Both the position numbers and the translations under genes were made by a program. Under the pieces are notes generated by a model, which had not been told where the DNA came from, made no database searches, and saw only the letters and a list, made by a program, of their open reading frames with translations. From Lindgomyces ingoldianus (taxonomy: Eukaryota > Ascomycota > Dothideomycetes > Pleosporales > Lindgomycetaceae): a stretch of DNA of 64,000 nucleotides. The stretch covers positions 1,649,672-1,713,671 of the forward strand of contig NW_022985163.1 of the NCBI RefSeq assembly GCF_010093535.1, read 5' to 3'. Position 1 is the first letter of the stretch, and every line of letters starts with the position of its first letter. Of the stretch, positions 8,004 through 44,241 are shown piece after piece.

Positions 8004-8047
8004 TGTTACAATCCTTGCTTCGACAAAATGGTATTTTCGGAAGCACT

Positions 8048-8368: not shown

Positions 8369-8373
8369 GCACT

Positions 8374-11406: not shown

Positions 11407-11574
11407 TTACTACATAAAACTTTAAAGTTTAACTTCTTAGTTTCTACATATATTAACTATAGCTTTTAATTCTTTATTAAAGATAGCGTATTTTTGTTTT
11501 AATAGTGTAAACTTTGCTAAGTAGTATACTATAAAGTGCTATTAGCTGTTTTCTTATTTCTAAAATAGTGCTGC

Positions 11575-11840
11575 TGTCCGTACGCAGCAGCAGCGTCGCG
11601 GCCTGGATACGAGCGATCACGCACGAGCAGGATCACGTATCTATGTCACATGATGCTCGTGCGCGAACCTCCGTGCGCGAACATCTAGATATCCCCCTTT
11701 TCCTCTGTACAGAGGAAAAATAAGAAGCAATTAACACTAGTTACCTAACACCCCTGTGCGATGTTTACACTGTGCAAACCTCTCTGTCTTGTACACATTT
11801 GCTAACACTAAGTGCTAGCTAGCAGAGAGTCTATTTAACA
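11575..11840 (+). repeat. Left LTR of alpha copy 1
   Basis: 266-bp LTR. Its first ~150 bp are GC-rich and scarcely mutated, with CG-containing tracts such as CGTCGCGGCC. The inner end shows RIP-type changes (for example ACTCTATTTAACA against ATTCAACA in the right LTR). Confidence 0.85.
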
Positions 11841-17480: not shown

Positions 17481-17752
17481 TGCTAGTGTCTGTACACAGC
17501 AGCAGCGTCGCAGCCTAAATACAAGCGATTACGCACAAGCAGGATCACGTATCTATGTTACATAATGCTTGTGCGCAAACCTCTGTGCATAAACATCTAG
17601 ATATCCCCCCTTTTTTTTATATAAAGAAAAAATAAGAAGTAATTAACACTAGTTACTTAACACCCCTGTGCAATGTTTACACTGTGTAAACCTCTCTGTC
17701 TTGTACGCATTTGCTGACACTAAGTGCTAGCTAGCAGAGAGTCTATTCAACA
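17481..17752 (+). repeat. Right LTR of alpha copy 1
   Basis: Same sequence as 11575-11840. Here the inner start is RIP-mutated (TGTCTGTACACAG) and only the outermost ~60 bp keep the unmutated state (TGTACGCATTTGCTGACAC and ATTCAACA). Confidence 0.85.
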
Positions 17753-17757
17753 GCTGC

Positions 17758-20421: not shown

Positions 20422-20462
20422 TGTTACTTACTTTTACATAAAATGTAATATCTATAGTTTTG

Positions 20463-21067
20463 TGTTACAATCCTTACTCCGGCGAAATGGTATTTTCGGG
20501 AGTACGTCGGCCTATGGTGATGTGTTAGCGGAGAAGGGAGGACTTAGCTTGATCAGGTGTACAGTCCGTTGAGCAGAGTGTGGGATAGGAGAAGAGAGAG
20601 TAGGCAGGCTTGTGGTTTAACCTAGCAGCTGTATAGGGAGCTGGTAAACCTGATCTGTAGGGATAGGAATAGAGGTATATATAGTGCGAGATATATAAGG
20701 CAGTAGTGTCCTCTTTAGAAAGGTATCACAGCTTCTTAGTTTAGTTAGGTAAAGACTAATTAATAAACTAAACAGTAATCACAACCTTCTAACTGTAGTT
20801 GTAATTAAGACTATATACATAGGTTTGCATGCTTTGCATGCCTGCATGCTAGTTCTAAAACTACCTGCATAGCCTGCAAGCCTGCAAGCCTGTATGTCTT
20901 ATTAGATGATGCACTTAGCAAGGCTTTTCTCTAAAAGCTAGAGCTATTCCTTATCTGTCCTGTCACGTGATTTGCTTAGCGCAGGGCTAAGCGTCTTCTA
21001 TCTAACGTTGTTTAGGCTGTGTAGGACAGCTAGTTAGTTTATTACAGTCTAACTGTTAGCTATAACA
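20463..21067 (-). repeat. Left LTR of beta copy B
   Basis: 605 bp. The outer ~130 bp (from 20463) are unmutated (for example TACTCCGGCGAAATGG). The inner part is RIP-mutated relative to the right LTR. Confidence 0.85.
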
Positions 21068-24000
21068 CGCAGGCTTCCCTCCTAGTTAGCGTCCTTACTA
21101 TTACGTTTTTTCTGTTGTAAGCGTTAGGTTTTCTTTTTAGCTAGTGCGTTCCCTTCTTTAAAGGCTAATCCTATGTTAATCCTTCTTAACTATGCCTCGC
21201 CAGGCTTCTTGTTTGTCTGCTGTTGTCTGTCGCCTTTGTACTGTTACTTGTCTTAATCCTCTTTATTATACAAAGATGCGTCTGTGTAGTGCCTGTTACT
21301 TAAGTAGGTCCTCTTACGCAATGTCCTTATTATTAGATAAGTGTGTTAAGTGTGTGCAAAAGAGCAGCTACTGCAATGCCTTTATGTTAGATACAGCCTA
21401 GGATTAGTTAAAGTGTGAGCGTGAGAGGTTGTTAGCAGAGGCAGAGACAGCCTAAGAGGACAGGATGCGCAAAAAGAAAAAGTTAGTAAAACATCTTTAA
21501 TTAATTATTTTCTATAAAAAGAGGATTTAGAAGTAGTTAAAGGTACTAAAGAATTAAAAAGTAAAGTATCTAAAAGAAGACCTTTTATTACTAGATAAGC
21601 TTAAAGCGCTTAAGGCAGAAGCAGCTAGTCTTCCTTCTCCTTAACCTATGTTAAAGGGTTGCAGACCTCCTACATTACAGCTAGTTAATGCTGCTGTTGT
21701 TTTAACTAATAATAGTGTTTTCTAGCCTAGGGAGCTTTCTCTAGGGTAGTTTTGCTTAGAAGGGACTCTAGGTATTTGTAAAAGGCCTAAAGGGCGTTTA
21801 ACAGGCTTTTAATAGGTTTCTATGTGTTTTTACTAGTAGGCTATTTTTTTTATTTTACTAGGTACTTGTTTCTTTTCTAGTTTAAGATTCTTTCTACTTT
21901 ATATTCTTTCTCTTCTTCTTTCTATCTAGTAGTTGTAAGTAGAATAGTTTTAAGTGTAAGCTTAAGTTTAAAGACATAGAACTAAGAGTGTATCTGCATT
22001 TCTTTTAGTAGCTTAAGTTTACAAATGCTAGAGCGTGTTTATATAACTTAGTATAGTTCTATACGTTTTTCTGCTAACTTTCTTAAAAGTTGTAGTGTCT
22101 TAAGATTTTTTATGTCTAAGTATATATAATTATTTAAGTGTATTTCTAGCGCAGGTTTTTTTTTTATTTACTGCCTTTTCTATAGCTTTCTAAGCTAATT
22201 AGGCTTCTCTAGTAAGTTTCTAATATAATTCTAAAAGTTTTATTATGTAATCTATAGCTTTTAGGGGATTAGTTAATTACAAGCTATAGAGCTTATATTA
22301 TAAAGAGTAACTAAAATTAGCTTTATATAGGGTTTCCTTAGTTATAGCTAATTCTAAGGTATTAATAACAAATTACGCTATTAGCAGCTATTTTGCCTAA
22401 TCTATTTATTTATATAAGACGTATTTTTATAGAAATTTTTTAACTTTTATGTTTATTCTTTCTGTTTGTCTGTCTATTTGTAGGTAATAAGCAGTAGAGA
22501 GTTTATAATTAATTCTAAAGTGTTTAACTAAGGCTGCTTAGAATTTACTAGTAAATAATTTATTATAGTTAAAGATAATAATCTTAGGGCATTTATAAGT
22601 AGTAAAGACATTCTTTTCTAGTTTAAACATAAACTCTTTAGCTGTAATGCTTTTTTTTAATAGCTATAAGTAAATAAATTTAGTAGTTTTATTAATAACC
22701 TATGTAATTATATTACATAATCTTTTAGTACTAGGTTCTTGTAACAGTGGTAGTCTAGTAATAAAGTCTATAGTTATTATAGTCTATAGTTAACTTAGCG
22801 CTGTAATTGCTTAGAGCAATCTATAAGGTTTATAGCGTTAAAAGTTGTTTTTATTACAAGTGTTACACTCTTACAAGACTTTAGTACATAAGTGTTTTAG
22901 TTAAAGTATCTTTTAGAGTATAGCAGTTTTAATCTTTTTCTATAGTAATCTAATTCCTAGGTGTTTAAACATAGAGGCTTTATAGTATTCTTTTATTAAG
23001 TTTTTCTATCCTTATTTAACTATTATAAGGGAACATAGTAGTTCTTCTTAGTTAGGTCCTTTATAAACTAGTCCTTCTAGAGTTTCTCTAAAGATTATAA
23101 ACTTCTCTAAGTTTTCCTTATTTGCTTTAAAGTAGTCTACACGCCTGCTTAGAGCGTTAGCCTGCTAATTACTACTTCTTGCTATATGTTTAATAATAAA
23201 GTTAAACTAAGCAAGTTCTATTACCTATTATACATGCATTAGTAAGAGTTTCTTAGTAGTAAGGAAAGTAACAAGATTTATGTAATTAGTAAGGATTATA
23301 AATTGCTAGCTAAGGCCTTAAAGCTTAACTTTCTAATTTCTACATGCATTAACTATAGCTTTTAGTTCTTTGTTAGAGATAGTATATTTTTATTCTAGTA
23401 GCATAAACTTTACTAAGTAGTAGGCAACTAGATGCTATTAACTATTTTCTTATCTCTAAGAAAGTGCTGCTTCTTTAGCTCTTAAAAAAGCATTAGTGTG
23501 CACTTTTGTTTCTAGCGTAGGGTTGTACATTCTAAAAATAGGGTAGCTTGTTATTATCCTTTTTAGTTCCTAAAAGGCTTTATCTATCTCTAGTATCTAT
23601 TAGAACCTTTAGGTTGCCCTTTCCTTTAAAGTAGCATCTGTAAGGGGGAGTGCTATTTTTAAATAATCCTTAATTATTCTTTATATATAGCTAGTAAGGC
23701 CTAGAAATCCTTTAATTTCTATTACTATTATTAGTATTAGCTAATTAAGTACCTTACTTACTTTAGTAAAGTCTATTTTAATTTCTTCTTTATTAATAAT
23801 AAATTCTAGGTATTTAGTTTTTTATATGTTAAATTTACATTTTTCTAGTTATAGATAAAGTCTATATTATTAGAGTTAATTAAGTATAAGTTTTACTTTA
23901 GATATGTAGTCTGTTCTGTCTTTTTTAGTATATATTAGAACATTATCTAGATACATAAGTACAAATATATCTAGGTAGGGGTTAAGTGCAGTGTTAATAA

Positions 24001-27000
24001 CTTGTTAGAAGGTTGCTAGGGCGTTAGTTAGTCTAAATAGCATAATAAAAAGTTTATATAGTTCTCTAGGGGTTTAAAAGGCTGTTATCTATTTATGTTC
24101 TTTTTTAATTCTTATTTTATTAAATCTATCCTAGATATTAAACTTAGTAAAGTGTTTAGTTCCTTTAAGTTAGTTTATAATATCTTAGATAATTAGTAGG
24201 GGGTATTAATCTTTTATAGTATTATTATTTAGGGTTTAATAGTCTTAACATACCTGTACCTTACTATTCTTCTTTTTTATAAAGACTACTGCTAATGCTA
24301 CTAGGCTATTACTTTCTCTAATGTGTTCTTAAGCTAGCATCCTGTCTATGTATTCTTACAGGGCGTCTTTTTAGGCTTTTGTTAATAGCTGTAGTTTATG
24401 CGTTTTTAATTATAAGTTTAGCTTAAAATTAATAGCGTAGTCCTAGGGCTAATGTAGCAGCAGTTCTTCTAGGTCCTCTAGGGTTTTAAACATGTCTTTA
24501 TAATCTTAGTATTCTTTAGGTAGCTTAGTTGTTTCTTAGGTTATTTAGTAAATTCTAACCTAATTAAAGTCTTGTTCTTTCTTAAATTCTTTAAAAAAAA
24601 ATTTTCTAGTTCTTTTTTTATTAGGCAGACAGCCTAAGCTTCTAGTTTCTAGCAAGGGAACATTTTTAGTTTTTATAGGTTAGTTTTGTTAAAGTTCTTA
24701 TAAAATGCTAATTATACTGCTTCTTTATTATCCTAGTTAGATAAGGACATAGTCTACTAGTTAATTACTAAGTTATGCTTATAGAGCTAGTTATAACCTA
24801 ATATTGCCTAGTATTTACCTTCTAGTAGTAATATGTTAAAGGATATCTAGTCCTTTGTACCTTTAGCTTTAGTAATAAGTTTTTCTGTTTTAAGTTAGAT
24901 TTATCCTACTTTATATTCTATTAATAAGGCGTTAGCTAAAGATACTCTAAAAAGGTTTTTTTTTTTTTAAAAGAGTATGTTATTCTAGTTAACCTATCTT
25001 AAATTAATTACTATAAATGTGCATCTACTGTTAATTAGGGCAAGCCTCTCTTATTTCTAGCCTAGTTGTTTAAGGGTAATTTTAGTTATTAGGCTTTAGC
25101 CTAGTCCTTAGCCTACTGTAATAAGGACGCAGAGTTTATAGAGTGTTTCTTTATAATCTATTTTATTATTTTCTTTAACAGCTTTAGCTGCATCTTTGTA
25201 TTTTGCAGTTTAGTCTAGTTATATTTTATATTCTTAATGTCCTAGTATTATGCATTCTGTTACAGTGCATTAGGCGTTTTCTATCTTATAGTAATATAGC
25301 ATCTAGTTATTTTACTAATATGCCTTTTATTAGAAGTAATAGAACATGCACGTTGTTCTGTTATTGCATTCTGTCTATAGTTTTTGTTTATAGACTATAC
25401 AGTTCTTGCAATAGAGACAGTGTAGTGTTTTATAGGTAGACGTTATACCTGTTAATGTGTTAGTTTCTGTTACACTTTCCTGCGTTCTGTGTAGCCACTA
25501 GCTAGCTCTGTGCTTAGTTAGCTAGTGTTTAATGCAATACTTGTTACTGCATAGGTACTAGGTATAAAGACATTTCCTTAGGTTATTTTATACTAGTATT
25601 AGCTAAACCTGTGTCTATTTAGAGTATTCTTTAGTTCTAATAATTTGTAATAAGTAACTCTAGTAAGTACATTAGAACTTGTTATGTTACCTACTTTTAC
25701 AGAGAATGTAGTATTCTTTGTCCTGTTAGGTTTCTAAGTCTTTGCAGGTAATAGCTAATATAAGGGGAAGCGTGTTAGCTTGTTCTTAACATAGTTTAGG
25801 TGTTATTAGTAGCGTACACTACTAGTTAAGACCTTCTTCTTTATTAAGAATTTTCTTAAACATTTTCTATTATTCTTCTTTATTTATAACTATGTAATGT
25901 GTTTTAGCAATTTCTTTTAGTATATTGTAAGTTTTAACATTATTATTAATATATACTTTATACATTAATTTTTTGCAGTCCTTTAAATAATGTGTGTTGC
26001 TACATTTCTAGTAGTCTTTATAAGTAAATTAATATCTTAGCTCTTAAGCAGAGATTTCTGTTATTAGTTGTTCTAAAGAAAACTTTTCTTTCCCTTCTCT
26101 AATGTTTGCAATGTATGTTGCAGCTTAGGTATAGCCTTACTATTCTTTATAGGTGGCAGCTTGTTCTAGTGCCCTAAAGACTTTATTAGTGTCTTATACC
26201 TTAACTTTCTAGTATTCTATTAGGCACTCTTTAGATTTGTGATTGTCTCTGCATTACTAGTAGAGGCGTTTATCTAGCTAGTCTAGAATCTCCTGTTCTG
26301 TTAGGCCTTATTCTATATGCATTACTTTTATAGTTAATCTGCTATCTTTATTCTTTAGTTATTTAGAGTCTAGGCATTTCTAATAAAAGTAACCTACTTT
26401 TTTATAGTTAAAGCATGCTTTTTTTTAAGCTATTTCTTCTATTCTTTGTTTAGGGGTAGCCTTACACCTTTAGAGGTATTGCTTTTTTTTTTAGAGAAGC
26501 TACATGTATGTTTAGCGTAACTAAGGTCTATAGGTTTACTATTAATTTATAGAGTTTCCTTCTTTTTTTAGAACTAGTTAGGTTTTCTAGTTATCTAGCT
26601 TTTTTCTTTTTTACTACATTGTTTAGCATGTCTTTTATTATATGTAAGTGCTTTTTTAACGTAATCCTTAAAGCTCTTAGGCTTCCCTATATAAGTAAAT
26701 TTGTCTTTAATGTTGTCTAAAAGCCCTTTATAGAACATTTATCTTATAGCTTTCTTGTCTGTCTATCTGCAAATAGCTAGCAGTTCTCTAAAGTAAGCTG
26801 CATATTGTTATACAGAGCTGTTGCCCTGTTAGAGAGCGTTTATCTTATTAACTACTTATTTTTCTTTATTAACTAGCTTATAGATTATAGTTAGAGCTGC
26901 TTTAAATAAATTAATGTTATTAAAGATTTTCTATGTTTCTAGTAGTAAAGGTTTACTATTAGTTTTGTAGTTTATCTAGTTATTAGTGTGTAGTTAGAAC

Positions 27001-27444
27001 TAGATAGCAGGTAATCTTTCTAAGTGTAGGCCTATTTATAAAATTATTTCTTTGTCTGTTCTAAAAGCGCCTTTGTTATATTGCATGTAAAGGTAGCATC
27101 TAGTAAAGAAAGGTTTTAGATCCTTAGCAGAACTGTTAAATGCCTTAAAAAGGGCTAGGCGTAGAGTCTTTTTTAACTTAATACTAGTTTTTTTTAAGTA
27201 ATATTTCTAAGGTTAGCTACTTCTAGCTATAAGGCTTAAATCTAATAAATGTTTAAAGGTCCTTACTATGCTTAAAGCTAGAGGTGCTGTTTAAGCTGTT
27301 TAAGCTTGTTTTAGAGGTAAAGTATTTACTAATTCTGTGCTTCTTTAGTTGCTATAAGGGTCTAGCTAGTGCCAGCAGCTAAAGCGCCTGTTATGCTGAT
27401 ATCTAAGGTGGTAGTAGCTATACTTTACAGGTGGTGGTGATTAC

Positions 27445-28049
27445 TGTTATAATCCTTACTCTAGTAAAATAGTATTTTTAGGAGTACATTAGCCTATAGT
27501 AATGTGTTAGCAGAGAAGAGAGGACTTAGCTTAATTAGGTGTACAGTCTGTTAAGCAGAGTGTAGGATAGAAGAAAAGAGAGTAGGCAGGCTTGTAGTTT
27601 AACCTAGCAGCTGTATAAGAAGCTAGTAAACCTAATCTATAGGGATAAGAATAGAGGTATATATAGTGCAAGATATACAAGGCAGCAGTGTTCTTTTTAG
27701 AAAGGTATTACAGCTTTTTAGTTTAGTTAGGTAAAGACTAATTAATAAACTAAACAGTAATCACAACCTTCTAACTATAGTTGTGATTAAGACTATATAC
27801 ATAGGTTTGCATGCTTTGCATGCCTGCATGCTAGTTCTAAAACTACCTGCATAGCCTGCAAGCCTGCAAGCCTGTATGTCTTATTGGATGATGCACTCGG
27901 CAAGGCTTTTCTCTAAAAGCCGGAGCCATTCCTCATCCGTCCTGTCACGTGATTCGCTTAGCGCGGGGCTAAGTGTCTTCCATCCGACGTCGTTCGGGCT
28001 GTGTAGGACAGCCAGTTGGTTCATTACGGTCTGACTGTTGGCTGTAACA
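27445..28049 (-). repeat. Right LTR of beta copy B
   Basis: 605 bp. The inner part is RIP-mutated (TACTCTAGTAAAATAG). The outermost ~170 bp (from about 27880) are GC-normal, for example GCGCGGGGCTAAG and CATCCGACGTCG. Confidence 0.85.
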
Positions 28050-28054
28050 TTTTG

Positions 28055-29518
28055 TTACTCTTTTAGTTCTTTTCTTATTACTGCTAGAGCTAGAGGCAGT
28101 GTGTCTGCTTATTTGTTTAATAGAGTAGAGGTCTAAAGAGGTGTTTAGAGCTAATTAAAACTTTTTTTTTTTGCTAGTATTTTTCTAAAGAACTTTTGTT
28201 ATTCTTTTTTGTTTAGTATATTATAGTAGACTATAGCAATCCTTCTTATAACTTTATAAGTGTTATAGTTGTTATCTAGAATTACTTTATAAAGTCCTGT
28301 TCTATAAAAATTATAGTTATAAAATTCGTTACATTTTTAGCAGATTTTTTACTTAAATTATTATTTAAGCTTTTTTAGTAAGACGCTTATTCTTTCTTAT
28401 TAGATAAAGTACTGTTCTTTACTTTTTTTACATTTTTAACATAGTTAGCTACTTATGTTAGATTCTACTATCTCTTAAAGACTGTAGCTTGTTTAATAGC
28501 CCTAGAGATACTGTTTCTCTTTTAGACCTCTACCTTCTAGTAGTCTACTAAATAGTTAGAGGATTTATAATTAGCTCTACATCTGTAGCAAAGTTATTTA
28601 TTTAGCCTGTTATAGAGTTCCTCTATTATTAGGCCTCTATTAGCGTACATAGCTTTTATAGCTAACTTATTATCTTTATTTTTTAGTTTTTTAAAGTCTA
28701 GGCAGTTTTACTAAAAATAGCCTACTTTTTTATAGTAAAGGTATGCTTTCTTTTTAAGCTATTTTTTTTATTCCTTATTTAAAGGCAGCTTTACGCCTTT
28801 AAAGAAACTACTCTTTTTCTTAGAAAAGCTATGTGTATGTTTAGTATAGCTAAGATCTATAGGCTTACTATTAAACCTTAGAGTCTCTCTTTTCTTCTAG
28901 AACTATTTAAGTTTTAAAGTTATAACACCTACTTTTTTTTCTCTATGCTGCTTAGCATGTCTTTTATTATAAGTAAGTGCTTTTTTAATATATTTCTTAA
29001 AGCTTTTAAGTTTTCTAGTATAAGTAAATTTATTTTTAATTAGTTTTAAAAGCTTATTATAAAACATCTGTTTTATTACTTTCTAATCTGTCTATCTATA
29101 GATAGCTAGTTACTCTCTAAAGTAAGCTATATAGTGCTAGACAGTGCTTTTTTTATTATAAAAAGTTTATTTTCTTAACTACTTACTTTTCTTAATTAAC
29201 TAGCTTATAGATTATAGTTAGAGCTAATTTAAAAAAGTTAATGTCTTTAAAGATTTTTTATATTTCTAATAGTAAAAGTTCTTTATTTATGTAGTAGTTT
29301 ATCTAATTATCTGTGTAGGGTTAGAACTACATAGCAGGTAATTCTTCTAAGTGTAGGCCTATTTATAAAATTATTTTTTTATTTGTTTTAAAAGCGCCTT
29401 TATTATATTACATGTAGAGGTAGCACTTTATAAAAAAGAGTTTTAAGTTTTTAGCTAAGCTATTAAATGCCTTAAAAAAGGCTAAGCATAAAGTCTTTTT
29501 TAACTTAATACTAGTTTT
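28055..29518 (-). repeat. Beta copy A, last internal piece
   Basis: Collinear with about 25720-27190 of copy B, with RIP differences. It ends abruptly where epsilon-type sequence starts near 29519, so the second LTR of copy A is missing. Confidence 0.65.
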
Positions 29519-32500
29519 AGCTAAAATTGCTAATTTTTTACACACTAAGCATAATTTAAGCTATATTAGCATAAACTAGTTTAGTATGTTTATAAAGTAT
29601 TATTTTAAGCTTAAAGTAAAGTTTTAAGTGTAAGTATAGTTAATAAATATTTAGCTTATAATAAAGCTTATTTTACTAAAGTTATATATATTATTATTTT
29701 AAATACTATACTTAGCTTTAATATTTTTTATAAGGCTAAACTTACTTTAAATTACATTAAGACTCTTATAAAAAGCTTTTATATAGTTATACTACACTTA
29801 AATGTTACTTTAAGCTTTAGATAACACTTTCTAAACATACTAAGTGTTGAATAGACTCTCTGCTAGCTAGCACTTAGTGTTAGCAAATGCGTACAAGACA
29901 GAGAGGGTTGCACAGTGTAAACATTACATAAAAGTGTTAGGTAACTAGTGTTAATTACTTTTTATTTTTCCTTTATATAAAGAAAAAGGGGGATATCTAG
30001 ATATTTGCGCACAGAGGTTTACGCATAAGCATTATGTAACATAGATACGTGATTCTGCTTGTGCGTGATTGCTTGTATCTAGGCCGCAACACTGCTGCTG
30101 TGTACAGACACTAGCAACTTTTCTTTTTATCTAAAAAGTTACCTTTTATATGTGTTACTTTTTTTCTGTCTGTATAAGTCTATCTAATTACATTTTACCT
30201 TTACTTTACCTTATTTATTAAGACTTGCCTTAGTAATGCTATGTGTTAAAATAAGCTAGTTATGCTATATAAATAGCTTTTTTTTTCTTTATTCTTTACT
30301 TTTTAAGCTTTACTGTATAATCCCCTAGCTCTTTTCTCTTTTTATACAGTGCTAATAGTAACAGATCCTTATAATAAGAAAAATAAGTGTGTATAATATA
30401 AAAAAAATAAAAAATAAAAAAAAATAAAAAAATAGGTCTTATATATAGGTGTTATTAGTCTAGTTAGTCTAAGGCATCTTTACGCACAAGATCTAGCTAG
30501 TCTACAGATGCTTCTATCTAGATAGAGAGGTAGTTAGTTAAGACTAATAATTAAAAAGCTTAGTTTAGTGTTTTTTTTATATATATATTTACTAAGTTAT
30601 TTTTACTATTAATTTACTTTATTTTAGTAATTTTCTTTTTCTTATATAATTTATAAAGTAATATAATGTTAATTATAAGTTACTTTTTACTAGTAGTGCC
30701 TAGCTTAATAAGGTAATTATATAAAAACTTTAAATTTATATAAATTACTACTAAAATTAGTAGTAGTTTAAGTATTTATATAATTTACTATAAAGTTATA
30801 CTAAAAGTAATTATATTATTAAACTTTTTAACTATTTTATATAGTTTACTAGTAAGAACACTCTTAGTTACTCTTTTACACTTAGTAGAATTCTAGTGTA
30901 TAATGTTACCTAGTATTTTAAAGTAGTTACTTTACTTTATATAGTTTTTATTACTTAATATAATTAAAAATCTTAGCTATAAGCTAAAGTTTTTATTATT
31001 AGTAAATAATTTATTTATAAAAATAAACAGCTTTACATAATTAAGCTATAATAGTAAAAAAGTAAGACTACACTTACTATTATTTATCTACTATTAGATT
31101 TATGCATTAAGTATGTTAATGTTATTATATAAAAAGTCTATAGTTTGTGCAGTAATAAATAAGTTAAATGCTGCCTTTAGTTAACATATAGATATAATAT
31201 ATACCCTTTTTACATATTACTTAATATATTATTATGCAGCATCTTTATTTTTTAAGTTAATTATATAAAAGTAGCTTACTTATCTTTTTTAAGTAAAAAC
31301 TATTATGTTATATATAAGTTTAATCTTTTTACTATTAAACTTAATAAGCTGCTTTTTTACTAAAATAGTTTTACTTTTTATATAAAACTTTACTTTTTAT
31401 AGTTTTTTTTTTTTTTTATATAAAATTTTTTATTATAATGCTTAAAGTGTTGTCTATTTATAAGCTAGTAATACTAAAAGTGTGCTCTTCTTTATTAGTA
31501 ATTAAAAGGTAAGAGTTGTATAAAAAAATATACATGCGTAGCTTTTTTTTATAGTAGTTATAATATGTCTTAAACTAATACAGTTCTAATTTAGTAGCTT
31601 TATATAAAAGTTATATAATCTAGAGTATTATATTTAGTAGAAAGCTCTAGCGCATCTTCTTTAGTAGCTTTGTGTACAGCATGCGCATAAGCTTATTTAT
31701 TAATTAAATGTATACTTATATAATATTACATAGTTTAAAATGCATTTTGTATATAGCTTTTAGACTTACTTTTATAGCTAAAAGTAGTCTTTAGCTTATT
31801 TTTTAAATAGTTAGTAACTAGGTAAAGATTTCTTTTTTTTTTATTTAAGTAGCTAGTAAACACTAAGCAGAATTTCTTATATAGTTAAGTTATTTTGCCT
31901 TTTACTTTTTATATAAAGTAAAGGTTAAAAATCTAACTTTTATACTTTATTAAGTTATATGCTATAACCTTAAAAGTGCTATTAGTAATTAGAGTGTTTA
32001 TTTTTATATAGTCTAATTTTTTAAATAGTTTTCTAAGTATAGTAATTACACTATCTATATAAAGCTTAATAAATAAAGCCTAATTATTTTTTTTTTTAGG
32101 TTAGAAATACCTAGTCTAGACTTTATATAGGTTTTTTTTACTTTTTACTTCTTCTAGTATCTATATCTTTCTTTTACACTAGTGCAGCATTACTATTCTA
32201 AGGGGCTTAGTTTGTAGTAGGCTTTAGTTTTACTTTTATAATATTTTTATAAAGCTATCTTTTTTTTTTTTTCTTTAGAGGATCTTTTTATATAGGGATT
32301 AGTTTATCTAGGTTATTTATTATAAGTAAGTTATTTTTTTTTATAGTATAGTTTAACTTATATATATTAAAGCTTTAGTAAGCTATTTTTTTTTAATAAT
32401 AACATCTCTTTCTTTAATACTTTTAATCTTATATAGGCTAGTCTAGCTTTTTTTTTCTTTTTATGCTATAATCTTTAAGCTAAGAGAGAAGTTAAGAACT

Positions 32501-35500
32501 TTATATATTATAAAGCTATTATAAGTATTAATTATATAATTAATGTTTACTTTTATATAGTTTTTTTAAAGTATCTTTATTACTTTTTATATAGTGCTTA
32601 CTTATGTAATAATGTCTAGTAATAGTAGAGAGTCTAAGTTAATTCTTAAGTATGCTCTAAAAACTAGCAGTGTAAGTACTAGACTATATAAGCTAGCTAT
32701 GTTATTTAGAGCCTTAACTGCTATCTACAGAATAGCCTTATTATCTATACAGTTACCTAGCTTAGTCTTTAGGATGTTAAACACTTATTAAAAAGGTGTG
32801 TGTACATGCTTAACTTTTCTAACTGCTTAATGTGCTTTTATAGGCATCTGCTTACATATAGCTTCTATAATTTTTGCATAGGCTTAAAAATCTTTTAAAG
32901 CAAAGTTTATACTAAAGTTATGCATAATATAGTCTAAAAGTCTTTAATAAGTGTTAATCTAGCATTTATATAGTACATCCTAGGTATCTTGTGTAGACAT
33001 AGATTTTAGGAATGTAGCAGCCTAAAATAATATGTCTATATTAATAATATATAAGACATCTTTATTATTAATTTATATAACATTAATAATAACTTTATAG
33101 TTAAAGTAAGTGTTATTTTTAATTATAAACTTAAATCTTTATAAAGCCTAGTTATATAATTAGTAGAAGTAGTAGAACTTCTTAATCTCTTCTAGTACTA
33201 CAGCATTAATGTTGTAGCTAGCGCTAGTTAGCATCTTCTAGAGTCTCTTTATACAAGAGTGTCTAAATTAGTAGTAGAGGTAGTAAAGTTTTAATTTAGT
33301 AAAGAAAAACATAAATTCTTCTTTACTAATATTAAAAAAAAAGTGTTTTTATTTTTATATAATAAAAATAGTAGTTTTGTCTTTACATATAATAATATTT
33401 AAAATATTATTAAAGTACACACTTATTTAGTCTATGTCTACTAGAGATAGTAGGAACAGTGTTAGAGTCTCTAAAATGTAATATGTTATGTTACTAACTA
33501 GGTTAGTAATTTATATAGTACTAATTAATTTTATTAATTTTTATTTTTTAAAGCTAATACTTTTCTTTCTTAGTGTCTAGTCTACTTTTATATAAGGGAA
33601 TTCTTATAAGTATGCTTTAAATTATAACTTCTTTATAGTAGAGATTCTTACTATGCTAGTATTCTATAGTTTACCTTAGTATACTATATAGTATTAATCT
33701 TTAAGAATAAACTATTCTATGTATTTTTTAGGTTCTAGGCTATAGATGTTCTCTGCAGTTATATAGTAAAGAAATATAGCATTAGTAAGGTAGTTAATAA
33801 TTTTTTTACTTTTCTTTTTATCTAAGTTATTATTATTATATAACTTTTTTTTTTTTACTTTAGTTTGCTTTTAAACTTTTAAATGTATATATTTACCTTT
33901 TTATATGTTAGTGTCTTATTATAAAATCTTTTATATAAAAAAATATATTAGTGTTTTACATAGAATTAATTTATATAAAAATAATTTATTAACTAACATT
34001 TTTTTTTATAATAAATAAAGTATTACTTTAATTATGTAGAGAACTATAGTCTAAATAATCTTTTATATTCTCTTAAGCTTCTTCTATGTTATTAATAGCT
34101 ATGTGTACATAGTAAGCTATATTGCCTATTAGTATAGTATATGTTTTAGGATTTATTTATAAATGTATTATTTTATTAATTAATTATAACTTAAAGTGCT
34201 AAATAGAGGTTACTGTATAGTGCTTTATATATAAGCTTAATTAAGAACATTACTTATTTAAGTTTAAGTTACCCTTAGCATACTTATATAATAGCAGTGT
34301 AAAGCAGTATTTTGCTTTAAAATTATAGACTAAAAGCTTTTTATATAAAAGTAAATTTATTAATTATAGCTTTAAAAGCTTTATATAAAGTTTTTATAAA
34401 GTTTTTTTACTTACTTTATATAAAGCTTATTATTATCTAATTTATTTAATACTAGTTATAGTTTATGTTAGTATTAAAGTAATTACTAAGCTACTTATAT
34501 AGTAACTTCTATAATTATTCTAGACTAATATTATAAAGGTAGAACATGTGTGCACGCTCTTTAAAAATATTAAAAAAGATGCTTGTATATAATGCTTTAA
34601 AGATAGTAAAGTGTTAGTAAAGCTTAATAAATACTATAGCCTTATTAGCTAGAATATTATATAGTTACTTTATATAGTTATTTTTCTTTTTCTATGCCTT
34701 TTAGAATTATATAACCTTTTTAGGTGTAAAGTTCTCTACTGTAATATCTTATGTAGGTAGAAGTTAGTATAGATTATACAGTAATTAAATTATATATAGT
34801 AGGTACAAGCTTTAGAGAATCACATGCAGAGCTGTAGCTATAGGAATATGTAGCTGCCTAGTTATGCTCTTGTACAGTAAGCTATTACAAGGTAGTTATA
34901 CTAATTATAAAAGAAGTATTAGGTCTATAAGTAATTTATATAAAAACATTCTCTATTATATTAAGACTAGTAATAGTAGTAATAGTTTTATATAATGTTT
35001 TAGTAAGATAGTAAACATGTGTTCTTTTTTTATAAGTCTATATAGTGTAGTAGCCTTTATTATGTCTTTTTTAAAGCTAATGCTCTTATTCTATAAGGTA
35101 GTAATTAGTTTTTATAAAAATAGTTAGCTAAAATTTTTAAAGTGTATAAGCTTTTACTTTATAAAGTTATTTTAAAAGTTTTTAAGCATATATACATCTA
35201 TTATGCTTAACACGCAGAGTTTTATAATTAAGTTAGCTATGTATAAATTAAGCTTTTTTTTAAGTGTGTTATTTAATAGTTTAATTTTATTTACTTAATT
35301 TTTAATATTTATTTACTTTACTAGAGTCTTTACTAAGATGCCTATAAAAGGTATATATTAGTTATATGTTAATATGTTATGTTAGCTAGTTATAGATAGA
35401 GCTAGTGTTGCTTGTTGCTCTATAGTAGTTAATTATATGTTGTTGCGCGCTGTCTTACTTCTTGTTATACACTGCCTCTAAACAGCCTTATGCAAAAAAA

Positions 35501-36448
35501 TAAAACAGACCTTTTAGCGTTAAATAAGCACTACTATTTATATAATACTTTTAAATAGTATTATATAAACAAGTTTTTTACTTTTACTTAAGTAACTAAA
35601 TAGAGATTTATAGCTACTTATATATAAATTAAACTTTATTTTTACTCTTACTAATTTATAGTTAAAGTAGTAAAGAAAAGAATTCTTTTTATATATAAAC
35701 TTTTAAATAAAAAAGTATAAAAAGAGCTTTCTTTTTTATAGTATTTAAACTCCTAATTAGTGTTAAATAAACTCTCTACTAGCTAGCACTTAGTGTTAGC
35801 AAATGTGTATAAGATAGAGAGAGTTGCATAGTGTAAACATTGTATAGGGGTGTTAGGTAACTAGTGTTAATTACTTCTTGTTTTTCCTCTGTACAGAGGA
35901 AAAGGGGGATATCTAGATGTTCGCGCACAGAGGTTCGCGCACGAGCATCATGTGACATAGATACGTGATCCTGCTCGTGCGTGATCGCTTGTATCCAGGC
36001 CGCGACGCTGCTGCTGCGTACGGACACTAAGCTAGTTTATGCTAATATAGCTTAGATTATACTTAGTGTGTAAAGAATTAGCTATATTAGCTATAAATGC
36101 TATTTAAAAGAAAATTTTTTATATAGATAGCTTAAGTATAGTCTTAATAATTACCTTTTTTTATTATTACTTAGCCTTTATAAGTTAGCTATAAAATTAG
36201 CTTATAAAAGTTATTTAGTGCTATAGTTATTTATTATTTTTTAAAAAACTTTATACATAGCTATAGTATATTTTTTTAAAAGTTTTATATTTTATTTAAA
36301 AGCTTAAAGTGTAAGCTATATCTAACATTTTTTTAGTATATTTAAGTAGTGTTATTAGAAATGCATTAGTGTAAAAAAAGTAGTTTAGTAAGGTTTTAGC
36401 AAAAGTAAGCAACTTAGGTGTGTAAGTAACTTACCTGTGAAGTATGTT
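29519..36448. mobile_element. Truncated foldback element epsilon, split by alpha copy 2
   Basis: 29519-29844 and 36027-36448 together follow the 19317-20421 palindrome from inside its left arm to its right terminus (CCTGTGAAGTATGTT). Alpha copy 2 sits between them with the 5-bp duplication CTAAG (29840-29844 and 36027-36031). The left terminus is missing. Confidence 0.7.
29845..36026 (-). mobile_element. LTR retrotransposon alpha, copy 2 (inverted, 6.2 kb)
   Basis: Reverse complement of alpha copy 1 over its full length, bounded by LTRs (29845-~30115 and ~35761-36026) and the target duplication CTAAG. Like copy 1 it is extremely AT-rich and coding-dead. The frame at 32594-32791 and the LTR frame at 35779-36027 are chance openings. 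The inverted pair is separated by about 12 kb holding beta B and pieces of beta A. Confidence 0.88.
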
Positions 36449-37871
36449 GCAGCAAATTAGTTTGTACTAACTACAACTTGTAGTCCCCTCTGCTCCTCTA
36501 GTAATCGTATAATCGTACTAACAAACTGAGTCGTAGGGCGGTTGAAAACTCCGAGTCGAATCGTATTACTTCTGATTGGTTACGCTGCCGCTATCTCTGA
36601 AGACGTTGAATTTGCAGTTGTTCGGGGCGAGATGACAAGGACATTTTAGAACTTAGCTCTACTCCCTTCTTAGCTCTCGACTCCACTAGCTAGTCTTGTT
36701 AAGTAGCTGTAAATAATAAGGGAAAAGTACAAGTTTACTAAACAAGAAGATGCGCTACTTACCAAGCCGAAGGTGAAACAGAGTTCTACCTTGAACCGAG
36801 GTCAGCCGACGGTAGAGCATATCCTCTGGTATGATGAGTGGCGCCGCGTCGTTCTCGTAACCTTTGCAGTTAAGATGGGTCAAGCGTATGCCAGGTCAAT
36901 AGAGTTGGAGTGCGTGTTGTAGAAATTTAAGATTGGGTGGCTTGTTTGGCCGAGCGAGGCAATACAAGTTGTTCTTTAGCGTGGCCACATCCAATCAACA
37001 TCACTAGCCACAGCGCCTTCTAGTTAAGGTAAGGTGTGGTTTAGGTGACGAGTTGCTGAATCAACTAAAGAGATCTATCTCCTGAACCTTAACTAGTTCT
37101 CACAACAATTACCGCGGAACTTCGCGAGGTAGCTCCAATTTGAGGCTTGACGTACGGATATGTCTCCATTACAGGCTATTGAGAAGGATACTTGTATACA
37201 ACACCGCCTTGGAGTTTGGTGCGCCTTTGACCTCCTGAGAACACACGAGAAAACCGTAACTCAAGCTCCCTAAGTCATCACGTTTTTCGAAGTCATCGAG
37301 GCTGGAACATATATCAAGCAACACCCAAGGGCCAAATTAACCCCATAACGAAAGGATTGGTGTCCTCCTACCTCATCCTCATCCCCTGAGTAAACCCAAA
37401 TTAGAATGTTGATGGGTCGAACACTCAGAGGCGCCCCATTAAATCAAGCACAGCCACACCCTACATTAGACCCTTCCTTGAATAAAAGTACGTTACGGAC
37501 CAAAAGGCCGTGAAAATCAGTGGGCAAATTCCTCGAAAGAGGCTAGTCTTCTCACCAATACACATATTCAGCCAGCTGTTTGGCTTCGGAGGGCTGGTTG
37601 TGGTTCTACTGTGTGTGGATCTTGGGAATATCCAACTTGGCAAGATATCCCGCCGCGGACGCGACGTTCACGTGGAGCTCGTCCTCATTCCTCTTCATTT
37701 GCGAGCCGTTGCACTCTTTCCGATCTGCCATGTTGATATCACCGAAGAAGAGATCGTCTGCGCTGTTTGCACAATAGCGTTGCGGTCATCTCCAGGAAGA
37801 GTTATGTACCAGAGTCCGATTGTCAGACTGAGGGCAACTGGCCAGAGGCTGTATAAAATAATCTTCGAAAC
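36449..37871. other. Boundary of the AT-rich block; no supported gene
   Basis: GC content returns to normal within a few tens of bases after the epsilon terminus. The sequence to 37871 has only short, stop-ridden frames. The plus-strand frame 37510-38256 is largely the antisense of the ankyrin repeats. It may contain decayed coding sequence that I cannot identify. Confidence 0.45.
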
Positions 37872-39248
37872 CTACTTGGCCCCGAACAGGACAGCCCACG
37901 ACAGCGGCGTCCGACCAGGTTTGGCTTCTTTCGACTCGGCGTCGACTCTGCCTTTATCAAGGAGCAGGTTGACGATAGCCTCATGCCCGTTCTCAGAGGC
38001 CCATGACAACGGCGTCAGACCATGTTTGGTGTCTTTCGACTCAGTATCGACACTCCCTGTGTCAAGGAGGAGCTTGACGCTAGCCTCGTGCCCATTTTCG
38101 GCGGCCCACGACAACGGCGTCAGGCCATGTTTGGTGTCTTTTGAGTCGGCATCTACTTTGCTTGTGTCAAGAAGAAGCTTAACGACTGCCTCGTGCCCGT
38201 TCTCGGCGGCCCACGACAGCGGCGTTCGACCGTATTTGTCCCTGGCGTCGGCATGAACTTTGCTTGTATCGTGCAATAGTCTAACGACGGATTTGCGCCC
38301 GAACAGGGCGGCCCACGAGAGTGGCGTCCGACCATTGTTGTCCTCAGCATCGGCATTGACTCTGTCTATATCAAGGAGCAGTTTAACGATAGCCTCGTGT
38401 CCGTTCTCGGCGGCCCGCGAAAGCGGCGTCCGGCCATGTTTGGCGTCTCTTGAGTCGGCATCAACTTTCCCTGTGTCAAGAAGCAGCTTGACAACAGCCT
38501 CATGTCCGTTCTCAGCGGCCCACGACAACGGTGTTAGGCCATATTCTGTATCTTTCAACTCGGCATCGACACTGCCTATGTCAAGGAGCAGCTTAACAAT
38601 AGCCTCATGCCCGTTCTCAGCAGCCCACAACAACGGCGTCAGACCATATTCTGTATCTTTTGACTCGGCATTTACTTTGCCTGTGTTAAGCAGCGGCTTG
38701 ACGACAGCCTCGTACCTATTCAAGACTGCCCACCACAGGGCGTCCGACCATATTTTGTATCTTTCAAATTAGTATCAACTCTACCTGTGTCAAGCAGTAG
38801 CTTAACGACAATGTTATGCACATTCAGGGTAGCCCACCACAGAGGCGTCCGACCATATTTGATGTCTTTTGAGTCAGCATTGACTTTACCTGTTTCAAGC
38901 AGCAGCTTAACAACAGTCTTGCGCCCGTTCTCAGCGGCCCATGACAGCGGCGTCCGACCATGTTTAGTGTCTGTCGAGTCGGCATTGACTCTGCCTGTAT
39001 CAAGGAGCAGCTTGACGATAGCCTCATGCCCGTTCTCGGCAGCCCAGGATAGCGGTGTCCGACAGCTTTTCCTTAGATTCGGCATCAAATTGACGTGAAT
39101 CAAGGAGCAGCTTAACGACGGCCTCGTGCCTATTCAAAGTGGTACACCACAGAGGCGTCTGACCATATTCTGTATTTTCTGAATCGACATCCACTCTGCC
39201 TATATCAAGCAGTAGCTTGACGACAGCGCTATATCCATTCTCAGCGGC
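37872..39248 (-). pseudogene. Displaced 3' part of the NLR ankyrin array
   Basis: Continuation of the ankyrin array of the NLR gene after its in-frame stop. From 39248 to about 39080 the original frame goes on (NGYSAVVKLLLDIGRVD). A small indel between about 39058 and 39085 then shifts to the frame of 38720-39103, and a further single-base shift near 38722 leads to the frame of 37872-38723, which ends LSWAVLFGAK and a stop. About a dozen repeats of 33-35 residues are present, with the consensus TPLSWAAENGHEAIVKLLLD. The near-uniform units argue that this was recently one reading frame. A sequencing or assembly slip in a repetitive array is the main alternative. Confidence 0.7.
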
Positions 39249-39860
39249 TCACGACAACGGTGTCTGACCATTTTTGGTATCTTCGGAGTCGGCATCAACT
39301 TTGCCTGAATCAAGCAGCAGCTTAACGACAGCATTGCGCCCGTTTAAGGTGGCCCACCACAGCGGCGTCAGACCGTTTTTATCCTTAGCTTCGGCATCAA
39401 CTTTACGTGAATCCAGGAGCAGCTTAATGACGCCCTCGTGCCTGTTTAAAGTGGCCCACCACAGAGGCGTCCGACCGTGCTTAGTGTCTTTCGAGTCGGC
39501 ATCAACTTTGCCTGTGTCAAGAAGAAGCTTAACGATAACCTCGTGCCCGTTCTCGGCGGCCCATGAAAGCGGAGTCCGATCATATTTGGTGTCTTTTGAG
39601 TTGGCATTGACTCTCCCTGTATCAAGCAGCAGCTTGACGACAGTCTTGCGCCCGTTCTCAGCGGCCCACGACAGGGGCGTCCGACCATGTTGAGTGTCTT
39701 TCAAGTTAACATCAACTCTACCCGTATCAAGCAATAGCTTAACGATAGCCTCGTGCCCATTCTCGGCGGCCCACGACAGCGGCGTCCGACCGTAGTTATC
39801 ATTCGTGTCAGGGTCGACTCTACTCCTCTCGAGCAGCAACCTAACAACTGCCTCATGGCC
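37900..39860 (-). repeat. Tandem ankyrin-coding repeats (~105-bp unit)
   Basis: Roughly two dozen head-to-tail units coding for ankyrin repeats. Many are nearly identical at the DNA level (recurring GTTCTCGGCGGCCCACGA on the plus strand). Unit length is 99-105 bp, always a multiple of three except at the two frameshifts. Confidence 0.85.
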
Positions 39861-42331
39861 CTTCTTCGCAGCGGGGAACAATAGCTCCTTACTAATATTG
39901 TCCTCTAAATCAATTTGAGAATCTCCTTTGGCCAGTAGCTTAATCAACTCCTTTTGTCCACTAGAGAAGGCATAAGATAATGGTGTTCCTCCAATTTCAT
40001 CCTTTAGGCCCGCCCGGGCCCCCGCCTTAATTAGCAGCTTGACCGCAGCTATGTTCCCATTCCACACAGCATATGATAATGGCGTTCGACCATATGTATC
40101 GACTGAGTCGACTTCGGCCCCCTTCCCTAACAGTAGGTTGAGGAATAGGTTGAAGTTTAGCCCGGTATAGGCGCGTTTGATCAATAGCTTGACCACGGTG
40201 TCAAAGCCATTTCCTGCAGCCCATGATAGCGCTGATCGCTGGTATGTATCATCCCGAGAATCCAGGTCGATGCCATCCATCTTAAGCAGATGCTTCACTG
40301 CTGTGCTCAGTCCGAAATAGGATACAACCATAAGGGTGGTGAACCCCTGGGGGAGCTCAGTGTTTGTACTTGTCCAATAGATTCTGAACCAAGTCAGGCA
40401 ACGCTGTGAACTTACATCACAGATTCTCAATATTGATGGGGTAATTGCATCTTGTATCCCAATTTGCAACTCGCGGAGGTGAGCAGCCCAATGCTTAGCA
40501 GAGTAGTCAAGGAAGACATGGTCCTCAGTGTATTGGGATGGTGGTCCGTTTCTGTAAAGAGGATGCGTTTCAAATTCTGCGAGGAGTAGGTGCCAGATGC
40601 AGATCTCAGCAAGAATACGATGGGATTCTTGCGGTCTTAGTGAGTTTTTCCATTTGAGATTGCTGTGCACGTCTTTGGGAGAATTCACCATATCCTTCTG
40701 AACCAAGAATTCCTTCGCTGTTTGGTGAAGTAGGTAAATCCTCGAGTCAATGATTGTCACAAAGAGGCCACAGATGTCTCGTACATCCTCTCGGAAACGG
40801 TCTTCGGGTCTGAGATTGAGGTCATCATAGGACTGATGACTTTCTTGAAGAACTAACACCAAGGTCATCTCTCTCAGGGTCAGGGGCCGTGCTGCCGCCA
40901 CAACGATGTATAGTAATTTTTGGGCCCTTTCGGAATCGCGGCTCTTAGAGAGGATCTTGTCGTATGCCTCGTCAACTGTTTTGGGGAGCTGGGAAGTGGC
41001 CTCGAATATTCCAGTTTTGTCGATATCGATATCGCTCTCGATCAAGTCAAGCGTAAGATGTACCCATAAATACGTTCTGTTAGGAACACGCATAAGCTCT
41101 CGTAATAAGAGGTCTTGCTCGTCATATGTAAGCTTCAGTCGTGCTCCAATATCCTGGACTCTAGCTCTGATAAAAACATTGATCTCTCGGGAGATCTTTT
41201 CCATCTCAACACCGCTTTCTCCGCTCAAATGGATCACCGGCAGCCCTGGAATCTCTAGAGGCTGGAAACCACGGCGGATTACACCATAGGGTCGGCTCGT
41301 GAGGAGAAACTTCAAATTAAAGTCCCTCCTAGTGCCATAAAGTTGGCATAATTTTCGAGCGAGCTGAGACCTCCCCTGATCTTCGCATTCGTCAATTGCG
41401 TCGAGAAGACAGATGATTTCGCCGGCATTCTCATCCTCTACGGCGCTGATAAGTATGTCCCAAAGGCCATTAAATGAACTAGTGAAGGTTTCTCCGTCGA
41501 TGTCGAACTGATCGAGAATTGCATCAGAGAGTAGGATGCGTTTCTGCTTGAAAAGTTGGTGTAGGATACAGCAGAGAGCGCTAACCACATTTCTCTGGTC
41601 CTCAAAGTCGTCCTTGAAGAAGAAGTAACACACCGTTCTGGATTCTGTTGTCGGTAGAATAGAATCAACCAGGTATTTTGCCAAAACCGACTTTCCGCAT
41701 ACGGGATCTGCAGACACCCAAAGCATTCTCGATGACTTACTCTCCTGCCAGTCCCGGAAAAGCTTATGAGACACGAACCAGTCACATGTCCTGGGGACCC
41801 GACCAGGGTTTCGGTCTTTTCGATCTCGGTATGGTGATGCATTGAGGCACCTCAGAATCTCTATTTCCTTCTCCCTCCGGGCCCGGTCTTTCTGCGTGTC
41901 CCTAGTTCTGAGGTGGGCGGATGGTGATTGATCTTGCCGAGAATTAGTATGTAGTTTCAACTCGCTTTAGATCCCGGCGTGTGAAGTCAGCCAGATTTAA
42001 CAATCTAGATGAATTATCATGATTTGTGCTAACCGTACCAAAATTTCTTACCGAAATGCACAGGCCCATTGAATTTAGGCCTATGAAATTGGTTGCCTGG
42101 GCCTGTATTGTTGTTCTGAATGCCCCCTGGAGCGTTGAATTTGGGCCCGGGGTCGTAGCTGTTAAAGGATTCACTCCTGGAAGGCCGCCTCGAGGGTTCC
42201 GTCTTACCATGTAATTGCGGACTGTGTTGGGTAGATGCGCCATTTGCTTGTGGGTGCTCGCTTTCCGACAGGGAGGCAGCATTCTGGGACTGCTGCCGCG
42301 ACCGAGATTTCGCGTCTAGGGGTCTCTCCAT
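39249..42331 (-). CDS. NLR/STAND receptor: amyloid-like motif, NACHT, ankyrin repeats (987 aa to first stop)
   Basis: Probable intracellular immune or incompatibility receptor. Exon 1 is 42331-42052 and exon 2 is 41932-39249. The 119-bp intron starts GTAAGA, has a perfect TACTAAT branch site and ends AAG, and joins exon 1 in frame to exon 2. Residues 1-55 are a polar, Ser/Gln-rich leader. Residues 56-94 are the amyloid-like motif shared with the neighbouring effector. A linker and NACHT follow, with Walker A ADPVCGKSVLAKYL and Walker B ICLLDAIDECED, then a long helical region (LLHQTAKEFLVQKD) and about ten ankyrin repeats. The frame ends at a TGA (39251-39249) where the repeat consensus has Trp (TGG), so the protein is either truncated or the gene is a pseudogene (see 37872-39248). 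A reading from Met at 41960 alone would miss the motif. Confidence 0.82.
42052..42166 (-). other. Amyloid-like signalling motif in the NLR (N-terminal)
   Basis: 39 codons: FNSYD, four variable residues, FNAPGG, Q, NTG, GNQF, then F-G-V-FG. 25 of 39 positions are identical to the motif at the end of the SesA-like protein (43603-43719). The Gly/Asn/Gln-rich pattern with spaced hydrophobic residues is that of fungal sigma- or PP/RHIM-like amyloid motifs. Which class it belongs to is my inference. Confidence 0.65.
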
Positions 42332-43590
42332 TGTCTAACGTACGTTGGATTAATTGACAAAGTGCCGATTACGAAGTTGTGCTAATCAGAGTTGTGCTTG
42401 AATAAAGGAGGCCATCGGAATCTCGTCGTCTCTGCCGGGAGAAGGAAAAATGCGAGAAGATGTGAAGTTGCCAGTTAGGAACTATCAAGGACGGGGAAGG
42501 GATATTCTTCTGTTGCGAGAGTGTTGACACTCCTGCGAAGGCTGAAGCACCTTAGGCGTCAGATTTTAGGTGACGCTTGGAAAGCCAGCCACATTCTGCC
42601 CTGCAAGCTAAGACGAGATGTTTGAGCGCGGCACCCTCGGCAGGAACAGGTCGTAGAGTATAGATAACTGCTCTTCACCAATGATGCACTAACCGAGATG
42701 ATACGTTGTAGATCGACTCATGAAGTGACTTGATATCTTCTCTGCGCCTCTCGAGGCTTCGACGGACATGCCAGCTGATCCAGGGATGGATGGGGTCCGT
42801 TCGTAACACGAGATGTGACATATGCTTCACGCAATTTGAGCACTCTAATGTGGCATATCTTCGCCTATTTCGGGGCTGACCAATTCAGTGAGGCGATTCA
42901 GCCGCACCACAACTGTGGCCGTCGTCACATCTGACTTCAAGACCGCGATCGGTCCCATCAAGGACAGGAATTTGCAGAGCGATGGAAGAAAAAAGGAATC
43001 ACGGGGTCCAGAAACATCCTTCGTCGGGGTGAACAGCAGTGTAACGAGAAGGGAGTGCGAGGGTTGCATATTGGACTGATGATATCATGTGGGTTCCTCC
43101 TTGGCTCGCGACCTTGATGCTGCATTTGGAAACGATCCCATCAGGAGCAGTGGGGGCCAAATGGTCGGCTTGTTTCTGACGTTTCTCTTTGTTGGACTCT
43201 TCCGCAAAACTTGGTAACTTCCCCTTGTGGCTCACTGTAAACGCTCGGATGCCCTGGACCGGATAGGGTTAGGGCCTGTGCATTTTGGCTCGAGCTAGAC
43301 GGATGTGTCTGAATATATCTGAGTAGAGATTGATCGATATGGCTATGAACCAAATCAGGTATGTATGTAGTTTGCTACACTTCATCATAGTATAATTTAT
43401 TCACATAAGCCCAACACTGTCGAGGAAGTGACTGTTCTTGAACTATGGTACCAAACGCGCAATAATGCCTGCTTGCACTGCCCAGACATCACAGCCCAGC
43501 CAAAGAATGACATACCCTGTCAGGAATCCAGGCTTCGGTTCCTATCTGTTACCGTACCATGGGTAGTTTTCCAACAAAAAGTAGTCCTCA
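42332..43590. other. Gap between the NLR and effector genes
   Basis: 1.26 kb of normal-GC sequence with only short overlapping frames on both strands (for example 42845-43069 and 43141-43353), none convincing. It should hold the NLR promoter and the effector 3' UTR. Confidence 0.45.
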
Positions 43591-44241
43591 TCACGAAGTT
43601 CTGCCAAAAGTCACACTCCCACTGAAAATAGTCCTGGAGAATTGGTTGCCACTGCCTGTATTGATATCCTGAGTACCACCAGGGGCATTGAACTGGCGCG
43701 AATCGTCGTAGCTGTTAAAAGTGTTGCCCGAACCCTCTTTCGGCACGGACGGCTCCATCTTTAACAATTTATCGATCGCATCACGCAATCCCTTAACTTG
43801 ATTTTGCATTATTTCTTTAATTGTATCATTCTCGGCCAGCTCACATACGTCCTTCATCATCCACAACGTCAAGACCTCCGCCGTCTTTCCTTTGCCTTGC
43901 TGTTGCACGGCCGCTTTGTAACTCTCGAACCTCGAAGTCTCGGGTGCCTCAGCGACGTCCTTGAATATGCTCTCGGACAACGTTGCTTTTGTGTTGCAGG
44001 CCTCCAGTGAACTCATGGCACTCTGGGGGTCTTCGGCTGAGCCGCGTGCGTCTAGTTGAATTTTGGCAGTCTGGAGAGCCTCCTCGACAAGGAGCAGCCC
44101 TCTACCTGCTTCATGGAATGCCTCCCGTAGGCCCTTGTCATCTTTGACAATATTGTAATTTTTTGTAGTAGCCTTGAGAATGGCAATCGTGCTAGAAATC
44201 AAGTTGGTGACGTTGGTGCCTGCCATCCTTGTACAGAACAC
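43591..44241 (-). CDS. SesA-domain effector with C-terminal amyloid-like motif (211-216 aa)
   Basis: Single-exon gene. The N-terminal ~115 residues (NLISSTIAILKATTKNYNIV, KGLREAFHEAGRGLLLVEEA, LQTAKIQLD) match the helical SesA type, the N-terminal domain found on fungal NACHT and other NTPases and in stand-alone cell-death effectors. A charged helical stretch follows (to about residue 170), then the 39-residue motif at 175-213, ending FGRTS. The likely start is the Met at 44226 (MAGTNV); Met at 44241 is the in-frame upstream alternative. It lies 1.26 kb upstream of the NLR on the same strand and carries the same motif as the NLR's N terminus. This is the arrangement of known NLR/effector pairs, in which NLR oligomers template effector amyloid formation and cell death. 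Function is inferred from architecture. Confidence 0.8.
   Translation of the reverse strand: MFCTRMAGTNVTNLISSTIAILKATTKNYNIVKDDKGLREAFHEAGRGLLLVEEALQTAKIQLDARGSAEDPQSAMSSLEACNTKATLSESIFKDVAEAPETSRFESYKAAVQQQGKGKTAEVLTLWMMKDVCELAENDTIKEIMQNQVKGLRDAIDKLLKMEPSVPKEGSGNTFNSYDDSRQFNAPGGTQDINTGSGNQFSRTIFSGSVTFGRTS
43603..43719 (-). other. Amyloid-like signalling motif in the effector (C-terminal)
   Basis: 39 codons aligned without gaps to the NLR motif at 42052-42166: FNSYD, FNAPGG, Q, NTGSGNQF, F-G-V-FG. Even the first codons agree at the DNA level (TTTAACAGCTACGA). Only three residues follow before the stop, so the motif is the extreme C terminus. Confidence 0.68.

Follow-up and report, generated by a model that had tools for sequence, protein, structure and literature searches.

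A probable ses/sigma-type effector-receptor pair with a likely impaired receptor in the pleosporalean fungus Lindgomyces ingoldianus

Two neighbouring genes in a 64,000-nucleotide stretch of Lindgomyces ingoldianus DNA (the window) share a Gly/Asn/Gln-rich motif that closes one protein and opens the other, which raises the question of whether they form an amyloid signalling pair of effector and receptor, how new such a pair would be, and whether both partners are in working order. The original prediction saw here a candidate for an undescribed allorecognition or immunity module of a SesA effector and a NACHT-ankyrin NLR, to be judged by amyloid-profile searches, motif conservation and homologous pairs elsewhere. 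We conclude with good confidence that the genes are a ses/sigma-type effector-receptor pair whose receptor is probably impaired or decaying in this strain. They lie on the same strand, 1259 bp apart (Table 1).

Table 1. Features of the effector-receptor locus and its flank (window positions)
Feature	Position	Strand	Details
SesA-sigma effector gene	43591..44226	-	single exon, 211 aa, intact; start and stop checked
Sigma motif, effector C terminus	43603..43719	-	PF17106 (NACHT_sigma), 1.2e-10, 41.8 bits, residues 170-208
Sigma-NACHT-ankyrin receptor model	39249..42331	-	987 aa, two exons, ends at TGA; lengths checked
Receptor exon 1	42331-42052	-	ATG 42331; carries sigma motif
Receptor intron (predicted)	42051-41933	-	119 nt
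Receptor exon 2	41932-39249	-	ends at TGA
Sigma motif, receptor N terminus	42052..42166	-	PF17106, 3.5e-14, 53.1 bits; last codon completed by exon 2
P-loop	41688..41711	-	sequence ADPVCGKS, with Val at a position that is Gly in relatives
Ankyrin repeat array	37872..39793	-	interrupted: TGA 39251-39249, frame changes at ~39030-39080 and ~38740-38770; both ORFs match Ank families over the cut-off
AT-rich, RIP-like block	8000..36500	.	GC 0.266, composite RIP index +1.17; receptor's 3' side

A Pfam scan placed a SesA domain (PF17107) at residues 10-130 of the effector, above the family cut-off (124.5 bits, 3.3e-36), and the sigma motif at its C terminus likewise exceeded the Pfam cut-off of 27.6 bits for PF17106. 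With the receptor copy also above that cut-off, the predicted layout of effector and NLR joined by an amyloid-type motif is well supported. The same family assignment rules out an undescribed motif, which Pfam already names NACHT_sigma. No HET-s motif family was found in either protein in a scan to E 10 with the Pfam families, a negative that does not extend to divergent HRAM subfamilies. In the excerpts of Daskalov et al. (PMC3321046) used here, sigma motif A is given as GxGxQFNxx and motif B as GGTQNINT; read by eye, rather than by computation, both window copies show the order A-B-A, the first A being degenerate.

The two copies sit where the original prediction had placed them and align without gaps, with 25 of 39 residues identical. 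Shuffling the residues 20,000 times gave at most 11 matches, and the next-best site in the six-frame window reached 10. At the DNA level the copies agree at 83 of 117 positions; of the 39 codons, 17 are unchanged, 8 show synonymous differences and 14 encode another residue. Since 8 of the 25 conserved codons differ synonymously, there is no support for the motif as a whole having been duplicated or converted recently. A motif so short and so rich in Gly, Asn and Gln could owe its likeness to chance or to low-complexity convergence of unrelated neighbours, but this explanation is at odds with the shuffles, with both copies passing a curated family cut-off and with conservation across species, where all 59 aligned effectors have Gly193 and Phe207; we regard it as extremely improbable.

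For the SesA model, entries of the executioner MLKL rank 4, 5, 6, 8, 9 and 13 among the 50 matches listed. No HET-s HeLo structure is among those 50, which excludes nothing, and searching PDB sequences with the alignment of SesA proteins returned weak, unrelated-looking matches, the best being a designed helical repeat (E 0.0018).

The receptor has a NACHT-type NTPase core followed by repeats, as expected of a STAND/NLR protein: NPHP3_N scored 132.2 bits and Ank families exceeded their cut-offs, whereas the NACHT Pfam model itself stayed below its own (13.5 vs 26.7). The motif does stand N-terminally, as proposed, but it reaches the NACHT frame only through the predicted intron. The exon 1 frame closes shortly past the motif; the intron begins with GTAAG at 42051, ends with AAG at 41933, carries TACTAAT near its end and connects the motif to the NACHT frame. 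This junction is supported by relatives in which it is continuous: the window receptor reads HFDQSPS, P0109 HFNQSLS and P0113 NFNQPS. The public protein for the locus, P0117 ("ankyrin, partial [Lindgomyces ingoldianus]"), lacks the sigma motif because it begins after it. According to the excerpts of Daskalov et al. (PMC3321046), the 5' intron of het-eN was likewise overlooked.

The original prediction had the receptor span to 37872, and ankyrin units indeed reach that position; what it missed is that the array is interrupted, so that the model stops at a TGA and there is no single open gene. The units at 38959 and 38854 lie in a different frame, and later units return to the first one. In the P-loop, the Lys and Ser are kept, whereas a Val replaces the Gly found in 118 of the 119 relatives that show the pattern (among 120 listed); the lone Val belongs to P0117, the window locus itself. 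Because the array is cut short and the P-loop is substituted, the receptor of the assembled strain is probably impaired or decaying, beside an intact effector.

An assembly error in the array is possible, and the P-loop change is independent of the array. The same pair could be fully functional, with the array breaks being assembly errors or spliced out and the P-loop Val tolerated. In keeping with this, the array consists of similar repeats that are hard to assemble (mean identity of 65% in amino acids and 73% in DNA over 16 of the 18 units caught by the pattern, the first and last omitted), the P-loop retains its Lys and Ser, and conservation is otherwise good in the NACHT body, with 87% identity to P0110 over 64% of the searched region. 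However, it would have to accommodate three separate array interruptions, an independent P-loop change unique among the 119 listed relatives and the annotation of P0117 as partial, and we hold it possible but doubtful. Alternatively, the receptor may be kept as a shorter protein that senses and signals with its NACHT and the first part of the array up to the TGA. The open 987-aa model retains sigma motif, NACHT and several ankyrin repeats, and the listed relatives include proteins of comparable or smaller size (e.g., P0112, 964 aa; P0183, 846 aa; P0176, 774 aa), but the P-loop Val and the further repeats remaining in broken frames make this an unlikely account. Impairment or decay remains our preferred reading of the receptor.

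Just beyond the receptor, close to 37000, lies the abrupt end of a long AT-rich block whose dinucleotide composition is RIP-like. The data do not support RIP as the origin of the damage to the receptor: the composite index is -0.43 to -0.68 over both genes, against +1.17 in the block. On the other side of the pair, seven ORFs scanned at 47-63 kb look ordinary where they match Pfam. A low-complexity repeat at 51520-52200 on the plus strand, reading SIKSIK or SSQSSQ in overlapping frames, is probably no gene.

The search for effector relatives recovered 107 proteins, the window's own included, of which 101 have both domains, five SesA only and one sigma only. On the receptor side, the best 120 of 1400 matches were listed. 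A profile of effector tails, built from proteins of at least 180 aa with the window's own and six others excluded, was searched against the N-terminal 250 residues of these 120 NLRs; the window NLR matched it (4.4e-16), as did six others of the best 120 (P0183, P0109, P0112, P0176, P0113 and P0171; 8.1e-16 to 3.3e-5). Among the remaining 114, three scored E 0.35-0.75 and the others gave no match. Restricting a homologue search to NLR residues 50-100 yielded no candidate, and the count of sigma-NLRs therefore rests on the best 120 of 1400. Precomputed tags assign PF17106 to three of the 120 listed relatives, and by hand count 35 carry PF01048 and nine PF06985, so the NACHT-ankyrin core occurs with various N termini.

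Homologous pairs do exist elsewhere. Judged by locus tags that follow one another and by contigs of the same length, SesA-sigma and related NACHT-ankyrin NLR genes are adjacent in Monosporascus ibericus (P0013 and P0113; DL764_008236/008235) and in Monosporascus sp. 5C6A (P0029 and P0176; DL771_005705/005706). With these pairs and the invariant motif residues, two of the tests named by the original prediction came out in favour of the module. The Monosporascus receptor motifs are weaker with the effector-tail profile (23.4 and 31.9 bits vs 51.8 in the window), that of M. ibericus being shortened. Grouping of motifs by locus gave a mixed picture: of the seven NLRs compared, that of the window is nearest to the window SesA motif, but six other effectors of the 107 are closer to the window NLR motif and the window SesA ranks 7th. 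Motif similarity does not resolve the two Monosporascus pairs.

An unusual Arg occurs in both window partners. The effector has it at residue 198, where the other 58 of the 59 aligned effectors (59 of the 107 found) have Gly; by text pattern across all 107, there are 90 Gly, one Arg (the window effector), one Asp and 15 sequences that do not fit. The corresponding residue of the window NLR is also Arg; in the four of six other sigma-NLRs that fit the pattern it is Asn, Gly, Gly and Glu. A further reading is that the pair has moved to a private sigma channel: having exchanged a Gly that is near-invariant in effectors for Arg, the two partners would seed each other and not other sigma proteins, and the receptor, its P-loop altered and its array shortened, would act as a retuned switch (constitutive, dominant or decoy), retained next to an intact effector, and not be a dead gene. 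We consider this combined reading quite improbable, and against its strong, pair-specific form stand the greater variability of the aligned place in NLRs and an overall similarity that does not single out the pair. The common Arg nonetheless offers a natural variant for testing private specificity in amyloid signalling pairs.

Searches of the 68 Mb genome found at least three sigma, 21 SesA and 65 NACHT-stretch matches. Among those listed, two of the sigma matches are the window pair and the third lies at C2:2318568 on another SesA protein. A NACHT paralogue, 78% identical, is found at C8:1388694 in a locus that includes masked stretches, and no SesA is among the matches listed within 700 kb of it. 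A database protein from outside the window, P0115, is a second receptor-like protein of L. ingoldianus; its contig differs in length from C8 of the window genome (1744002 vs 1727526), which suggests that it comes from another assembly of the species, comparable at this locus.

Further SesA-NLR neighbours are present in the genome. The cluster L004 (G000:C2:2314000-2323900; ORFs 811-2457 -, 3624-4265 +, 4536-5189 -) comprises two SesA proteins, the first with a sigma motif (29.8 bits), and a NACHT NLR with a related GDQI motif in a putative first exon. Its NLR scores 64 against the second SesA tail (reached by 0 of 5000 shuffles) and 46 against the sigma tail (5 of 5000), and the two SesA tails score 64 against each other (0 of 5000). 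The motifs of this NLR and of the second SesA have no Pfam match, which may point to a divergent family of amyloid motifs. L007 and L008 (G000:C20 and C4; ORFs 1264-1920 - and 3-1115 -) hold SesA genes that are nearly identical although they lie on separate contigs. Each gene is followed by a same-strand ORF matching the NACHT query, the SesA tails read GSGDSV...GSGDIYV, and the two loci possibly represent a duplicated effector-receptor pair. At L009 (G000:C28; ORFs 1285-1914 - and 1-882 -), a SesA with a Gly/Asn-rich tail stands beside an ORF that by eye looks NB-ARC-like.

The published model of oligomerisation, sigma templating and release of a membrane-active SesA most likely describes, by analogy, how the window pair works. 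As in HET-S/NWD2, ligand binding by the ankyrin array would oligomerise the NACHT receptor; the clustered N-terminal sigma motifs would fold into cross-beta structure and serve as a template for the SesA sigma tail; and the freed SesA helical bundle, a putative HeLo/MLKL-like executioner, would damage membranes and cause cell death. The pair may serve in allorecognition or immunity. A hint of fibril formation by sigma is given in the excerpts of PMC3321046, where it is quoted as an unpublished result.

The claim that an ankyrin sensor with a SesA effector makes the module undescribed does not survive comparison with the literature. In the excerpted text of Daskalov et al. 2012 (PMC3321046), the s locus of N. 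haematococca holds sesA, sesB and het-eN with a sigma motif common to all three, and het-eN is described as a NACHT protein "displaying ankyrin repeats"; this description rules out a new effector/sensor combination, and sigma/Het-eN, which the original prediction had set up as a contrast, is the same arrangement. Excerpts of PMC4986451 name NACHT-ANK among the receptors with such motifs, and those of PMC9815663 report sigma in 71 NLR N termini, mostly at positions 50-99, a range into which the window receptor motif falls. No paper on this Lindgomyces locus was found in the open-access literature searched, which is weak evidence. The pair adds a dothideomycete case to sigma signalling, whose mechanism has already been proposed in print, and the combination of an intact cell-death effector with a receptor that is probably decaying would exemplify the birth and death of such modules.

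As far as the excerpted sources describe them, the closest counterpart is the s locus of Nectria haematococca, where a SesA with C-terminal sigma also stands beside a NACHT-ankyrin receptor with N-terminal sigma, and where a receptor 5' intron hides the motif from annotation, as it does here. The window pair differs in having no third sigma protein (sesB) detected alongside, in its interrupted receptor and in the Arg within both motifs. A Ses_B profile search gave no match, the controls giving none either, and some published loci lack sesA or sesB (excerpts of PMC3321046). HET-S/NWD2 of Podospora anserina shares adjacent genes and an amyloid motif common to the effector C terminus and the receptor N terminus, but there a HET-s motif (two copies in the effector), a HeLo effector and a WD40 receptor take the place of sigma, SesA and ankyrin (excerpts of PMC4518210 and PMC5485727). 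HELLP/SBP/PNT1 of Chaetomium globosum is likewise an effector-receptor cluster joined by an amyloid motif and has a HeLo-like effector; it uses the PP motif with HeLo-like and lipase effectors, whereas the window pair uses sigma (excerpts of PMC5485727).
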